Shown here: positions 4,275 through 19,261 of the stretch, piece after piece
Layout: each line of letters opens with the position of its first letter
Position numbering within the stretch: position 1 is the stretch's first letter
IMG/VR virus record: IMGVR_UViG_3300033553_000177
Span: 1-24,468 of that record
Direction: 5' to 3' (one strand)
From: a virus
Length of the DNA: 24,468 nt
The notes under the pieces: model-generated
The model's input: only the letters and a program-made list of their open reading frames with translations
Database searches by the model: none
What the model was told of the DNA's origin: nothing
Translations under genes and position numbers: made by a program

Positions 4275-5855
4275 ATGGGAAAAAAGATTTTTTACAATGA
4301 TGATGCAAGGGCTCGCATCCTAGCGGGCGCAGAGATGCTCTATAACGCGGTGAAAGTAACGTATGGTCCAAAGGGCGGAAACGTTATCATCAGCGGCGAC
4401 TATGGGGGTCCTACGGTTACTCATGATGGCGTAACAGTCGCAGAGTCGATCGATATTCAGGATGTCGACGATAGCACTCTCGGATCCAAACAAGGCGCAG
4501 AGCTCATCAAACAGGCCGCACAGAATCTCAATAAAGCAGCCGGCGACGGGACCACGACTGTAACGATTCTCACATACCAAATCCTCCAGGAGGCTAATCG
4601 ATTGATAGCAGCCGGTGAGAACCCGCAGCAATTACGCAAAGAGCTTGAGGCGGCCAAAGATCAGGCGCTCGAACTACTCGCCAAACTATCAGAGGCAATC
4701 ACTCCAGATGGTGATCGTGTGGCTCAACTCGCATCGATAAGCGCCGGGGATCCTAAGATCGGACAACTGATCGCAGACATTATTAAAAAGATCGGCAGCG
4801 ATGGAGTCGTAACTGTTGAAACTAGCCAGGGGCTCGAGCTAGAATCTGAGATCGTCAAAGGGTATACGTTCGCCCGGGGATTCGTGTCTCAGTACATGAT
4901 GACGGATCAGGCTCGCCAGGAGGCAGTCTACACGAATGCGGATATCCTCATCACTGATAAAAGGCTCTCGAATATTATGGAGATCCTCCCATTTATCGAA
5001 AAACTCGGCCAGGCCGGCAAAAAAGATCTCGTCATTATTGCCGATGATATCGATGGAGAGGTCCTGAGTACGCTTATCATTAACAAGGTGAAAGGCATAT
5101 TTAACGCCGTAGCCATCAAGGCTCCGGCCTATGGTGATCGTCGGGTCCAGACGCTCCAGGACATCGCTATTCTTACCGGCGGGACTGTTGTCAGCGATAC
5201 AATGGGACATAAGTTCGAGGAGCTCGAATTGTCGGTCCTGGGATCAGCCGCGAAAGTGATCGTCGGAAAAGATGAGACAACGATCATCGATGGTAAAGGC
5301 GCCCAGGAGGATATCGATTCTCGCATCGCAGAGATCCGCTCAAAGCACAAACTCGAGGAATACGATAAAGAGTTCGCAGAACAGCGCGCGGGCGCTCTAG
5401 CGGGCCAGGTGGCGGTTATTAGAGTAGGCGGCGCAACCGAAACCGAAATCGAGGAAAAGAAATTCCGTGTCGATGATGCAGTCGCAGCAACAAAGGCCGC
5501 ACTCGCAGAGGGTATCGTGGCCGGTGGTGGCGTAACGCTTGTCAATATAGCCGGGAGTATGACTCGCAAAACAACGGGCGCACAGCTCCTCGTAAAGGCA
5601 TTTAAACAGCCATTCCTCGTGCTTATGGAGAACTCAGGCATTAACGGCCAGGCAGAGATCAATCGAATAACCGCAGCCCAGGGAATGGGAATCGACGTCA
5701 ACCATCCAGACGATGCCGAACTCATCGATCTAAAAGCGGCCGGCGTTATTGATCCGGTCCGAGTAACTCGAGAGGCGATTATGAATGCCGTCTCTATCGC
5801 AGCAACCGCGGCAACAATGGGCGCTCTCGTCGTGGATGTCCCGGAGTCGAAGTAA
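4275..5855 (+). CDS. groEL: Chaperonin GroEL (Cpn60), phage-encoded
   Basis: A full-length group I chaperonin, 526 aa, that folds proteins in a double ring with GroES. Motifs in order: KVTYGPKGGNV (residues 27-37), THDGVTVAESI (49-59), AAGDGTTT (88-95) with Asp91 of the ATP site, an apical domain with intact length, VRVTRE near the C-terminus, and VDDAVAATKAALAEGIVAGGG (399-419) carrying Asp401, equivalent to E. coli Asp398. The protein ends at VVDVPESK, without the Gly-Gly-Met tail of E. coli GroEL. It has little ribosome-binding sequence of its own and starts 2 bases after groES, so coupling is likely. The intact catalytic residues suggest an active enzyme. The most likely clients are the phage coat or other head proteins, as in phages that need or bring chaperonins; that is inference. 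Confidence 0.97.
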   Translation: MGKKIFYNDDARARILAGAEMLYNAVKVTYGPKGGNVIISGDYGGPTVTHDGVTVAESIDIQDVDDSTLGSKQGAELIKQAAQNLNKAAGDGTTTVTILTYQILQEANRLIAAGENPQQLRKELEAAKDQALELLAKLSEAITPDGDRVAQLASISAGDPKIGQLIADIIKKIGSDGVVTVETSQGLELESEIVKGYTFARGFVSQYMMTDQARQEAVYTNADILITDKRLSNIMEILPFIEKLGQAGKKDLVIIADDIDGEVLSTLIINKVKGIFNAVAIKAPAYGDRRVQTLQDIAILTGGTVVSDTMGHKFEELELSVLGSAAKVIVGKDETTIIDGKGAQEDIDSRIAEIRSKHKLEEYDKEFAEQRAGALAGQVAVIRVGGATETEIEEKKFRVDDAVAATKAALAEGIVAGGGVTLVNIAGSMTRKTTGAQLLVKAFKQPFLVLMENSGINGQAEINRITAAQGMGIDVNHPDDAELIDLKAAGVIDPVRVTREAIMNAVSIAATAATMGALVVDVPESK

Positions 5856-9426: not shown

Positions 9427-9435
9427 TGATATTAT
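9427..9435 (+). promoter_or_regulatory. Leaderless promoter of the portal gene
   Basis: TGATATTAT is an extended -10 (TATTAT at 9430-9435). Six bases later comes ATG 9442, exactly where transcription should start. No Shine-Dalgarno precedes this gene. The same TGATATTATA block recurs at 14737 and 21225. Confidence 0.65.
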
Positions 9436-9441
9436 AAATCT

Positions 9442-10917
9442 ATGCAAGATGATAACCCGCTAGTATTCCCTAAACAGATCGATAAGGCGCGACTCGAGCG
9501 CTATCGGCACTATGACGAATTATACGAGGGCGAGCATTTCGAGGCCTTTTCTGTTAAGATCCCGGGAGAATTCTCATCTCAATATAAAAAACTCCGATAT
9601 ATTACGGCCAATTTCGCCGGACTTATGAGCCGCGTTGTTGCCGATATGCTATTCGGTGAGGCGATCACGATCGATGTTGAGGAGGATAAGAATCAGAAGT
9701 TTATCGATGGCCTGGTCCATCAGAACGACCTCATTAATCAGCTTTACGAGAGCTCGATCATCAATTCCCGCCGCGGGATGGATGTCTTTAAAATGCGAAT
9801 CGGCAAACGCAATCCCCTCGATCCTACGGCAAAGGCCGAGATCATTATCGAGCAAGTCGGGGCCCAGATCTATTTCCCTCAATTCGATAACAAGGCAGCC
9901 CGGAACGTAACGACTCAGGATATTATCGCGACGACATTCGCCCAGAACGGCAAAACCTATCTCCACAAGGAAACACATCAGCCCGGCCAGATCACGCATG
10001 AGGTGTTCGAGTATGATCTCAAACAAGGGAAAATCATTTCGGCCGAGATGCCGGAGGATTTCGGATTCCTCCCGATCGAAAAGACTCTCGTCAATCGATC
10101 ACTCGTATTCGCTATCCCAAACTATCGGGATGGTAAATACTGGGGACCATCAGACTATAAGGATCTCGAGTCCCTATTTTTCGCATTGAATAACCGACTC
10201 ACAAAGACCGACAATATCCTCGACAAGCACTCGGACCCTATTCTGGCCGTCCCTCCAGGCGTTATCGATGAGGATGGTAAGGTTAAAAAGGAATCTCTCG
10301 GCATGTTCGAGGTAGATAACGAAAATCCCGGATTCAACAAACCGGAGTATATCGTCTGGAACGCGAACCTCGATAGCGCATTCGTAGAGATCGAGAAATT
10401 GATCGAGATGCTATTCATGTTCTCCGAGATCGCACCGGCAACAATGGGCGCAGACAAAAACGGCCAGGCAGAATCCGGCCGCGCTCTCAAATTCAAACTC
10501 CTCGCCACTATCCGCAAGCGTAACCGAAAGATCTCATATTACGATCTCCTGATTAAAGAGATTCTCCAAACGGCCCAGGAACTCGCGATCGCCTGGAAAA
10601 TTGATATCGATGGTGTACGCCCTAGCGCGGCAGAACGTCCGAAAATTCAATGGGGTGATGGCGTTATTAACGACGAAACCGAGCAAGTCGAGAACGCCAC
10701 AAAGCGTATCGATGCCGGCATTTCATCTCGTGCAGATGAGATCGCTCGCCTGGATGATATCACGCCAGAGGAGGCTCGAAAGAAAGTCCAAGAGATCGAC
10801 GACGAATCAGGTCCTAAACTCCCCGATCTCGGAAATCCTGGCGGCACTCCGAATCCTCCAACTCCACCAACGCCTCCGGGCCCTAACGATCCAACACCGC
10901 CAACACCGGGAGCCTAG
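9442..10917 (+). CDS. Portal protein (SPP1 gp6-like)
   Basis: 491 aa, normal for SPP1-type portals, forming the dodecameric DNA gate at one capsid vertex. The N-terminal part carries RLERYRHYDELYEGEH and a helix TANFAGLMSRVVADMLFGE; the central clip/stem region contains NRLTKTDNILDKHSDPILAVP, and then ESGRALKFKLLATIRKRNRK, which is typical of the family. The last 35 residues form a Pro/Thr/Gly-rich tail (repeated P-T-P-P) not needed for the portal fold. The Pro-rich scaffold N-terminus at 11954 looks similar. Translation probably begins on a leaderless mRNA (see the promoter at 9427). A 3-base gap leads to the minor capsid gene. Confidence 0.9.
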   Translation: MQDDNPLVFPKQIDKARLERYRHYDELYEGEHFEAFSVKIPGEFSSQYKKLRYITANFAGLMSRVVADMLFGEAITIDVEEDKNQKFIDGLVHQNDLINQLYESSIINSRRGMDVFKMRIGKRNPLDPTAKAEIIIEQVGAQIYFPQFDNKAARNVTTQDIIATTFAQNGKTYLHKETHQPGQITHEVFEYDLKQGKIISAEMPEDFGFLPIEKTLVNRSLVFAIPNYRDGKYWGPSDYKDLESLFFALNNRLTKTDNILDKHSDPILAVPPGVIDEDGKVKKESLGMFEVDNENPGFNKPEYIVWNANLDSAFVEIEKLIEMLFMFSEIAPATMGADKNGQAESGRALKFKLLATIRKRNRKISYYDLLIKEILQTAQELAIAWKIDIDGVRPSAAERPKIQWGDGVINDETEQVENATKRIDAGISSRADEIARLDDITPEEARKKVQEIDDESGPKLPDLGNPGGTPNPPTPPTPPGPNDPTPPTPGA

Positions 10918-13596: not shown

Positions 13597-13617
13597 TCGA
13601 CCCGGGATCACCTGTGG

Positions 13618-13646
13618 AAAAGTCCTCCAATTTCGGAGGACTTTTT
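13618..13646 (+). terminator. Intrinsic terminator after the coat gene
   Basis: AAAAGTCCTCC, a 6-base loop AATTTC, GGAGGACTTTT and a short T tract. The stem is perfect and is followed by TTTTTC. It ends the scaffold/coat transcript. Confidence 0.9.
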
Positions 13647-13658
13647 CTATTGCGCTAG

Positions 13659-13667
13659 TGCTATGAT
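13659..13667 (+). promoter_or_regulatory. Promoter of the candidate small RNA
   Basis: TGCTATGAT is an extended -10 lying 12 bases after the terminator T tract. Transcription should start at 13674, exactly the first base of a perfect 8-bp hairpin. No clear -35. Confidence 0.6.
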
Positions 13668-13673
13668 TAATGT

Positions 13674-13840
13674 GATAGGTATTCCTCGCAGTTACCTATC
13701 CGCACCTTATTCAAAAAACACACCTCCCAAAAAACTCCACCTCACGGGTAGATGGTCGAATATCTACCGCATAAGTCTCTCTAAAACAAACACATCGAAC
13801 ACCAACAAACGGTCCCCCAATTTTCGGAGGGCCGTTTTTT
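13674..13840 (+). ncRNA. Candidate phage small RNA, about 167 nt
   Basis: This stretch is bounded by its own extended -10 promoter (13659-13667) and its own intrinsic terminator (13808-13840). The predicted 5' end begins a hairpin, GATAGGTA (13674-13681) pairing with TACCTATC (13693-13700). A second stem pairs GGTAGAT (13747-13753) with ATCTACC (13762-13768). Between them lies an A- and C-rich single-stranded part holding CACCTCC (13721-13727) and CTCCACCTC (13735-13743), which resemble the anti-Shine-Dalgarno end of 16S rRNA and could pair with GGAGG sites in mRNAs. A 60-codon ORF crosses it but starts within the -10 box and has no ribosome-binding site. It does not look like a tRNA. No family is recognised; the function is a guess. 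Confidence 0.6.
13808..13840 (+). terminator. Intrinsic terminator of the small RNA unit
   Basis: AACGGTCCCCC, loop, GGAGGGCCGTT then TTTTT. The stem has one wobble pair and one mismatch and is GC-rich, with a good T tract. It overlaps no gene and ends the transcript from 13674. Confidence 0.88.
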
Positions 13841-13842
13841 AT

Positions 13843-13851
13843 TGATATAAT
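13843..13851 (+). promoter_or_regulatory. Extended -10 promoter of the LysM-CHAP gene
   Basis: TGATATAAT is a perfect TG-n-TATAAT element directly after the terminator. A start near 13858 would leave a 30-base leader containing the AGGAG site used by the AUU start at 13888. Confidence 0.65.
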
Positions 13852-13887: not shown

Positions 13888-14646
13888 ATTAGTATCAAAC
13901 CTGTAATTCTAGCGATCGTAATATCGGTCGCGGCCCTCGTAGCGACTCCGGTCCCGGCGAGCGCTCTCACAAATATTAAGTATAGATCGAGCACGAATAC
14001 TCTCGATTTCTTAACAATGGGATTCGTCCAGGAGCCAACACCGGATCCAGTTATCAAGGTCCAGGAATTGCCGGCGGAACCCTCGCCCACAAAACCACCC
14101 GAACCAAAGCCGGATCGTAAATATACGGTCCAAGAGGGCGACAACCTCTCAAAAATTGCCGATCAGAATAGCACAACCTGGCCTCGATTATGGAATAAGA
14201 ATCTCGATCTCAAAGATCCGAACCTTATCTATATCGGCCAGATTTTAATTATTCCCCCAGAATCGGAAGTCCTAAAGGATCGGGAAGTGCCCGCCATTCA
14301 AGCGCAGACGGCCGCTCCTGGCGTCCGATCGTACAATTCGGCCGGGAACACATACGCGCCCGGGAATTGCACCTGGTACGTTAAAAACAGGCGTCCGGAC
14401 CTCCCGGGAAATCTCGGCAATGCGAACACCTGGCAATATATGGCTCAATCATACGGCCTCCCGACTGGATTAACTCCACGCGCGGGCGCGGTGGGGACGA
14501 CTGGAGCCGGCGATCTCGGCCATGTTGTCTATGTCGAGCGAGTAAATAGCGATGGAACGATCCTCATATCTGAGATGAATTTCGCCGGGCTCTATTCGCA
14601 GCGGTCCAGGACCGCGAATGCCTCCGAATTTCAATACATATATTAA
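13888..14646 (+). CDS. Secreted LysM-CHAP peptidoglycan hydrolase with AUU start
   Basis: The first ATG of this frame is at 14017, but the frame is open upstream and reads a textbook signal peptide: a Lys-containing N-terminus, hydrophobic ILAIVISVAALVA, and an ASA cleavage site at residues 24-26. No ATG, GTG or TTG starts it; ATT at 13888 does, 7 bases after an AGGAG site. The protein is then 252 aa: signal 1-26, a Pro-rich linker, LysM at about 79-123 (KYTVQEGDNLSKIA to GQILIIP), and CHAP with Cys161 (GNCTWYV), His212 (DLGHVVYV) and the polar residue in ISEMN (229-231). CHAP domains cut peptide bonds of peptidoglycan. Because it is exported by itself it could act at entry, in wall remodelling or in holin-independent lysis. 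It is a separate transcript unit from the GH25 lysin. Confidence 0.82.
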   Translation: MSIKPVILAIVISVAALVATPVPASALTNIKYRSSTNTLDFLTMGFVQEPTPDPVIKVQELPAEPSPTKPPEPKPDRKYTVQEGDNLSKIADQNSTTWPRLWNKNLDLKDPNLIYIGQILIIPPESEVLKDREVPAIQAQTAAPGVRSYNSAGNTYAPGNCTWYVKNRRPDLPGNLGNANTWQYMAQSYGLPTGLTPRAGAVGTTGAGDLGHVVYVERVNSDGTILISEMNFAGLYSQRSRTANASEFQYIY

Positions 14647-14655
14647 GGCCATGTC

Positions 14656-14728
14656 TTATCCACAGTTTATCCACGGGGCGATTTCAATCTGTTAGCCCTG
14701 TGGATAACTCTGCTCTATATGGGGATAA
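14656..14728. promoter_or_regulatory. Cluster of DnaA-box-like motifs
   Basis: In 73 bases of gene-free DNA: TTATCCACA exact at 14656-14664, TTATCCACG at 14667-14675 (one mismatch), TGTGGATAA exact on the other strand at 14699-14707, and TGGGGATAA at 14720-14728 (one mismatch, minus). This is the bacterial DnaA-box consensus. It may be a replication origin using host DnaA or a DnaA-controlled promoter region for the glycosyltransferase operon. No adjacent AT-rich unwinding region is obvious. Confidence 0.55.
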
Positions 14729-14736
14729 CTTGCTTA

Positions 14737-18812: not shown

Positions 18813-18993
18813 CATCCTGAATCAGTTCGTCCTATATTACGAGCACCATGAGGATTGCCCTATGGAGGCCGCCGGCCGTCGTATGATTACCGAAAAGCGC
18901 CGGATCCTAAAGTGGTTCCGGTTCGAGGTCGCATTTATAATATTAACTATGGGAACGAAAGGCCGACATCATGATAAAACCGACAAGAGATAA
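18799..18993 (+). CDS. Small hypothetical protein, GTG start
   Basis: 64 aa, starting at GTG inside the end of the preceding gene (14-base overlap), with GGGAGGAA about 12 bases upstream. The composition is basic with one hydrophobic helix (FRFEVAFIILTM) near the C-terminus, and its end overlaps the GroES-like gene by 23 bases. Not recognised. It could be spurious, although its frame is open in an otherwise tightly packed region and leaves no gap between its neighbours. Confidence 0.35.
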   Translation: MENPSILNQFVLYYEHHEDCPMEAAGRRMITEKRRILKWFRFEVAFIILTMGTKGRHHDKTDKR

Positions 18994-19261
18994 AGTCCTG
19001 ATCGAGATCGTAACGATCGGCGACAAACGAGCCCAGGACGCCGCAGCGCGGATCCCCGGATTCGTCATTCCGGATCCAGAACTCCAGGGGATCCCAAATC
19101 ACGGGAAACTATTCGCGATCGGCGAGGACGTAGATCTCGAGGCGAATGTCGGAGATATGGTTATTTTTAGAGAGACGGCTCCCCGTGGATTCAACCATAA
19201 GGGACTCAAACTTTTTGCGGTCCACCCTCATCAAGTGCTCGCACGAGTGGAGGGCGCATAA
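18971..19261 (+). CDS. Second GroES-like (Cpn10) co-chaperonin
   Basis: 96 aa, the normal GroES length. It begins MIKPTRDKVLIEIV, like the GroES first strand. A longer loop (residues 16-40) ends in GFVIPD, where GroES has the mobile-loop G-I-V/I-L that docks on GroEL. Then come GKLFAIGEDVDLEANVGDMVIFRE, matching VGDKV-F, and LKLFAVHPHQVLARVEGA at the end, matching the family's E/DILA-V ending. It differs strongly from the groES at 4018. It may serve as a specialised cap for the coat protein, as T4 gp31 does, or for the host GroEL. It sits in the glycosyltransferase block, away from groEL, and its stop overlaps the next start by 1 base. Confidence 0.7.
   Translation: MIKPTRDKVLIEIVTIGDKRAQDAAARIPGFVIPDPELQGIPNHGKLFAIGEDVDLEANVGDMVIFRETAPRGFNHKGLKLFAVHPHQVLARVEGA

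Follow-up and report, generated by a model that had tools for sequence, protein, structure and literature searches.

The window, meaning the whole stretch of DNA analysed (IMGVR_UViG_3300033553_000177, 24,468 bases), carries the phage head genes for terminase, portal, minor head protein, scaffold and major capsid protein, and a gene for a LysM-containing lysin comes after the major capsid gene. Between the capsid and lysin genes lie, in this order, a terminator (T1), an extended −10 promoter, a predicted start at about 13674, a hairpin (H1), a G-poor linker, a second hairpin (H2), a second G-poor linker, a second terminator (T2) and the extended −10 of the lysin gene, all within positions 13617-13851 (Table 1). 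A preliminary description of this DNA had proposed a terminator-promoter-RNA-terminator unit here, and T1, the promoter, H1 and T2 were all found in place.

Table 1. Features of the RNA unit and its borders, in window positions
Feature	Position	Strand	Remarks
T1, intrinsic terminator of the major capsid gene	13617..13647	+	Perfect stem AAAGTCCTCC/GGAGGACTTT, U-run
Extended −10 promoter TGCTATGAT, no −35; predicted start ~13674	13659..13667	+	Predicted from sequence
H1, 5' hairpin at the predicted start	13674..13700	+	8 bp; L224 and L232 each have a counterpart at their own predicted start
GCACCUU box	13702..13708	+	Conserved across hosts and most phage copies
Core ACACCUCCCAAAAAACUCCACCUCAC, holding both anti-SD-like segments	13720..13745	+	Near-invariant in Saccharimonadia
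H2, 8-bp hairpin inserted between the core and the AUAAGU box	13747..13768	+	Host loci L182 and L189 have insertions at the same place
AUAAGUCUCUC box	13771..13781	+	In many hosts AUAAGU pairs with a downstream ACUUAU (P3)
G-poor, AC-rich 3' linker	13782..13806	+	Matches host locus L161 (query 125-153)
T2, intrinsic terminator of the RNA	13807..13842	+	Stem 13807-13837, U-run to 13842
Extended −10 promoter of the lysin gene, outside the RNA	13843..13851	+	TGATATAAT

The promoter that had been proposed for the unit was recovered as an extended −10 whose predicted start is the first base of H1 (8-bp stem, GATAGGTA/TACCTATC), though not with a −35 element, and as this element is absent a plain sigma-70 scan does not list it. 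Extended −10 sequences of the TGCTATGAT type occur at only 7 sites on the + strand of the 24 kb. For the RNA spanning 13674-13842 the folding energy is −35.3 kcal/mol, which beats 200 of 200 shuffles (z −3.7). Its middle, previously taken to be unstructured, is unpaired in the core, where the segments CACCTCC and CTCCACCTC start at 13721 and 13735, respectively; the hairpin H2 had been overlooked. T1, which reads AAAGTCCTCC-AATTTC-GGAGGACTTT, and T2 have the sequence TCCnCCAATTT(T)CGGAGGnC in common, which suggests that the insertion of the RNA involved a duplicated terminator.

The sole long open reading frame of the interval encodes 60 amino acids (13663-13845) and was rejected as a gene: its stop lies past the U-run and its codon usage scores −0.10, versus a gene mean of +0.20. 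Two other leads were set aside. The hairpin arms stand in the opposite order to those of a Cas12a-like repeat, judged by eye, and the H1 palindrome used as a search key gave 84 matches, about the chance expectation, with no tie to the RNA family described below.

Two contigs, L089 and L095, span the interval in near relatives, with capsid proteins 62-65% identical to that of the window, and the RNA unit is absent from both of these nearest phage relatives. The slot of L089 holds a single terminator and a single promoter and is otherwise empty. In L095 the coat gene is followed, as in the window, by a terminator and then an extended −10, after which come two small protein genes, a terminator, a promoter and the lysin. 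The genes of L095 are a different cargo and not homologues of the RNA. Because it is empty in one relative and holds protein genes in the other, the capsid-lysin interval appears to be a variable cargo slot, the cargo here being a moron-like RNA: the unit has its own predicted promoter and terminator and lies between genes that are adjacent in relatives. Since the closest relatives are without it, the RNA is dispensable for this phage group. Used as a query against bacterial genomes, the lysin found its top matches in Saccharibacteria. We read the window as a Saccharibacteria phage carrying a moron-like gene for a noncoding RNA.

The lysin gene of the window (13888-14646) has an apparent AUU start (ATT AGT) behind an AGGAG site, as does that of L089 (about 4521). 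The rare start is conserved in these two genomes; the homologues in L093 and L095 have ATG at this place. Directly 3' of the lysin, at 14653-14735 in the window and 5310-5395 in L089, lies a cluster of DnaA-box-like sequences (TTATCCACA, TGTGGATAA), possibly a replication origin. In other contigs the sequence 5' of the lysin has features of its own. L105 and L106 contain a long, similar noncoding stretch bounded by GGGGAGTC...ACTCCCC, without an Rfam match, which is possibly a second structured phage RNA; the lysin leaders of L107-L118 contain a conserved hairpin, GAGCCGCGCC...TTGAGGCTC, placed between an SD-like site and the lysin ATG.

A nucleotide search with the unit against six of the Saccharibacteria genomes matched by the lysin gave matches in five. 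Identity was 93% over 44 nt (E 1.5e-11), accompanied by a second collinear piece, and the matching part is the anti-SD-like linker. A single-sequence covariance model (R1) reached E 3.6e-7 in Saccharibacteria and had matches in 66 of 147 genomes of the class Saccharimonadia. Second R1 matches in genomes G121 and G020, the two cases checked, lack the core and proved to be chance; weak R1 matches were therefore given no weight, and the survey rests on a second profile (R2), made from 24 host sequences of the 78-nt core. R2 matches 343 of 393 Saccharimonadia genomes at E up to 0.01, some of the near-threshold matches possibly being chance. In a sample of the phylum it matched 6 of 116 genomes, all six of them also drawn as members of Saccharimonadia. 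The core itself, with consensus ACACCUCCCAA(A)nACUCCACCUCAC...AUAAGUCUCUC, is pyrimidine/A-rich and near-invariant in Saccharimonadia; its exact form was found in 21 of 380 phylum genomes, all class members, and a reversed-pattern control gave 0. The ACACCUCCCAA(A)nACUCCACCUCAC part is contained in the core of the window. With copies across hundreds of host genomes and five further phage records (see below), the core is more than a chance sequence.

The host element has a fixed position in the dcw cluster, between mraZ and rsmH/mraW. With the two families named by NCBIfam, mraZ was upstream and rsmH downstream, on the same strand, in 42 of 42 host loci in which both genes were detected; in a 43rd locus (L178) rsmH alone was detected. 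The element comprises a long closing helix (P1) and, in this order, a hairpin, the GCACCUU box, the core, the AUAAGUCUCUC box and an AC-rich linker, and in most loci a boxA-like GYTCTTTAACAATT lies ~110 nt upstream of the core. The core is unpaired and lies inside the long P1 helix. Covariation in P1 is marked: 97.4% of cells are paired, a figure biased upward by the picking of P1 3' strands for best pairing, and 13 of 19 pairs are changed on both sides, a number that this choice does not create and that was approached by 0 of 500 shuffles and by no slid control. The length of the A-run within the core differs by several bases between genomes, and L182 and L189 have extra sequence behind the core, where the phage has H2. 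This variable A-run, together with the shared insertion point of L182, L189 and the phage, argues for an element that works as RNA rather than as DNA boxes. In 16 of 42 loci the rsmH start codon is preceded, at a distance of 7-12 nt, by an extended −10, versus 0.8% of random windows; rsmH would therefore often have its own promoter behind the element, and we infer that the element may be an independent RNA and not just a leader. The mraZ-rsmH element is an undescribed, nearly universal RNA of Saccharimonadia. In some host loci (e.g., L172, L175 and L209) an inverted repeat overlaps the extended −10 just before the rsmH ATG, from which rsmH may be transcribed leaderless.

The window scores as a homologue of the core domain of this RNA, with the core, the 5' hairpin and G(C/U)ACCUU box, and the AUAAGUCUCUC box all present. 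The closing helix P1 is absent, its place being occupied by the promoter and T2, so that the phage RNA is a core-domain homologue and not a full-length member; it also sits between capsid and lysin genes instead of mraZ and rsmH.

Two pattern scans of viral contigs showed that L199, L200, L224 and L225 also carry the core, with R2 E values from 2.6e-15 to 1.2e-10, and none of them has mraZ or rsmH. Phage genes were confirmed in all four (terminase and capsid in L199, helicase and endolysin in L200, terminase and portal in L224, primase and exonuclease in L225). Among annotated phages one record has the core, the circular, complete GenBank genome MW202692.1 (L232), where it lies behind the endolysin genes (R2 E 1.8e-15). 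Its annotation calls a short ORF across the core a hypothetical protein, but it is the RNA that is conserved there. No core was found in plasmids. Further matches of a relaxed viral scan (L222, L223 and L226-L229) lie in coding sequence and were judged chance-like from their context and weak R2 scores. At least five phage records besides the window thus carry the core, away from mraZ and rsmH. The plan of the unit also recurs: in the window, L224 and MW202692.1 a −10 box is followed by a hairpin located at the predicted start, then by the core and a terminator. In L200 the promoter is weaker, and core and terminator come after a lysis gene. This recurrence, with a core that is conserved host RNA sequence, strongly supports the earlier view of the unit as a phage small RNA that encodes no protein. 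Because the position of the core differs between phages, we read its distribution as repeated acquisition or repeated relocation. Genes resembling actinobacterial regulators by eye are present at 2826-4911 of L224, on a contig with a Saccharibacteria RNA, as would be expected either of phages in contact with both partners or of a chimeric assembly.

No Rfam 15 family matched at gathering score in the window, in the host loci (cmscan of six loci against all families) or in related phage loci. The mraW RNA motif of Actinobacteria is likewise a structured RNA upstream of the mraW/rsmH gene; it belongs to another phylum, and the six host loci gave no match to Rfam 15 at gathering score. RsaE/RoxS-type sRNAs carry unpaired C-rich motifs that can meet purine-rich ribosome-binding sites, and such motifs are also unpaired in the phage RNA, which differs in lacking an Rfam match and in conserving a 26-nt core as opposed to short UCCC motifs. 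The layout of the unit is that of phage small RNAs and morons, in which a promoter-cargo-terminator cassette is placed between late phage genes; what differs is that this cargo has a near-universal host RNA as its homologue and sits at different places in the genomes of several phages. Conceptually closest is UpsM of Rhodobacter, an sRNA from the long noncoding leader of the dcw cluster that is thought to act in trans (PMC5089854). In Rhodobacteraceae, UpsM is located upstream of mraZ, with its end at a terminator within the leader (PMC5089854); the Saccharimonadia RNA lies between mraZ and rsmH. The mraZ-rsmH element was not found in the openly accessible journal literature on Saccharibacteria, and the main text of a survey of structured RNAs in human microbiomes has no mention of Saccharibacteria, mraW or mraZ (PMC8040213).

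The sequences themselves show the unit and its homology to the host RNA, as well as the constraint that acts on the host element as RNA and the presence of the RNA in several different phages. For the function of the unit we lean, with moderate confidence, toward a predicted free RNA of ~165 nt, made up of the 5' hairpin, the single-stranded core, H2, the AC-rich linker and the terminator, that is a trans-acting mimic of the host dcw-locus RNA, as a decoy or a substitute. A mimic of this type is favored because the phage RNAs keep the 5' hairpin, the core and the terminator and drop P1. During infection the RNA would act in trans, presenting its single-stranded core to an RNA or protein factor that is bound by the host RNA. 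The latter would thereby be titrated or replaced, and expression of the dcw cluster, or of other targets of the host RNA, would shift. In the absence of P1, the phage RNA may not reproduce the whole host function. A wider proposal, which we put forward tentatively and hold to be rather improbable as a whole, is that of a class-wide structured dcw RNA whose core is repeatedly taken by phages as a stand-alone trans RNA, capturing the partner of the RNA and so host division or translation. If true, such a phage takeover of a host RNA circuit at the RNA level would be of a kind not described.

The partner could instead be a set of messengers. CACCUCC and CCACCUC are unpaired and near-invariant in the host family, and given that Saccharibacteria 16S ends ...GGAUUACCUCCUUUCU they resemble an anti-SD, as would suit an sRNA of the antisense type whose two ACCUC(C) segments cover Shine-Dalgarno sites, whether across all messengers or on a few of them. 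We consider this unlikely. With 31 phage gene starts the linker pairs at a mean of −10.4 kcal/mol; composition-matched shuffled linkers reach −10.0 kcal/mol, and 91 of 300 of them are as good. No conserved partner was found near the host locus, and pairing of the core with neighbouring host genes or 16S rRNA is not above shuffles. A global effect would moreover be self-damaging, since SD-like sites are present at most of the genes of this phage, and conservation reaches well past the anti-SD letters, into AUAAGUCUCUC and GCACCUU. The anti-SD-like segments that had drawn attention coincide exactly with the conserved core, but the general anti-Shine-Dalgarno role assigned to them fails the pairing tests, and the idea that the RNA dampens SD-dependent genes and favours leaderless ones is not supported. 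That the core is the site of an RNA-binding regulator titrated by the phage RNA (e.g., Rho, a boxA/NusB complex, MraZ or RsmH) is a special case of the mimic with a named ligand, which we regard as rather unlikely. The core is single-stranded, G-poor and C-rich and its element lies directly between mraZ and rsmH, and the boxA-like GYTCTTTAACAATT upstream of most host cores suggests antitermination control there; Rho sites, however, are not conserved letter by letter, and 27 of 100 shuffles match the 16S substrate region of RsmH (ACACACCgCCC) as well as the core does, so that this likeness does not exceed chance.

Two readings would dispense with an active RNA. MraZ operator boxes copied by phages and transcribed incidentally would account for the constant proximity of the element to mraZ in hosts and for GTG/GGAGG-like repeats on the complementary strand, yet the spacing of these repeats varies, hairpins are inserted, a covarying helix surrounds the core and phages show a promoter-hairpin-terminator plan, which together make an element at the DNA level very improbable. 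We give hardly any credence to a transcriptional spacer that merely insulates the lysin from capsid transcription: the unit does lie between two terminators that look like duplicates, but L089 insulates with one, and a spacer would not preserve 26 nt of host sequence, so that the conserved core already contradicts it.

With the mimic as the preferred reading, these observations point to contact at the RNA level between several different phages, which carry a host-type RNA as a separate gene, and their ultra-small hosts. Saccharibacteria, a huge group of tiny episymbionts whose regulation is little known, gain a nearly universal noncoding RNA at a fixed genomic place. The 26-nt near-invariant, single-stranded core is a usable bait for its partner, in hosts or in infected cells, and a core found outside mraZ-rsmH marks a contig as probably that of a Saccharibacteria phage.

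Other features of the window were observed along the way. The phage encodes a GroEL homologue (4275-5855) and a GroES-like protein (18971-19261), as well as several sugar-transferase-like proteins; a GroEL search aimed at naming the host gave no result. The first ORF opens with MCIRDR (about 13-29), which matches the translated Nextera transposon end and is probably an adapter remnant in the assembly, and hence the start of this ORF is probably artefactual. At 9427-9442 there is an extended −10 whose end is 7 nt upstream of the portal ATG, and given this distance the portal mRNA may be leaderless.
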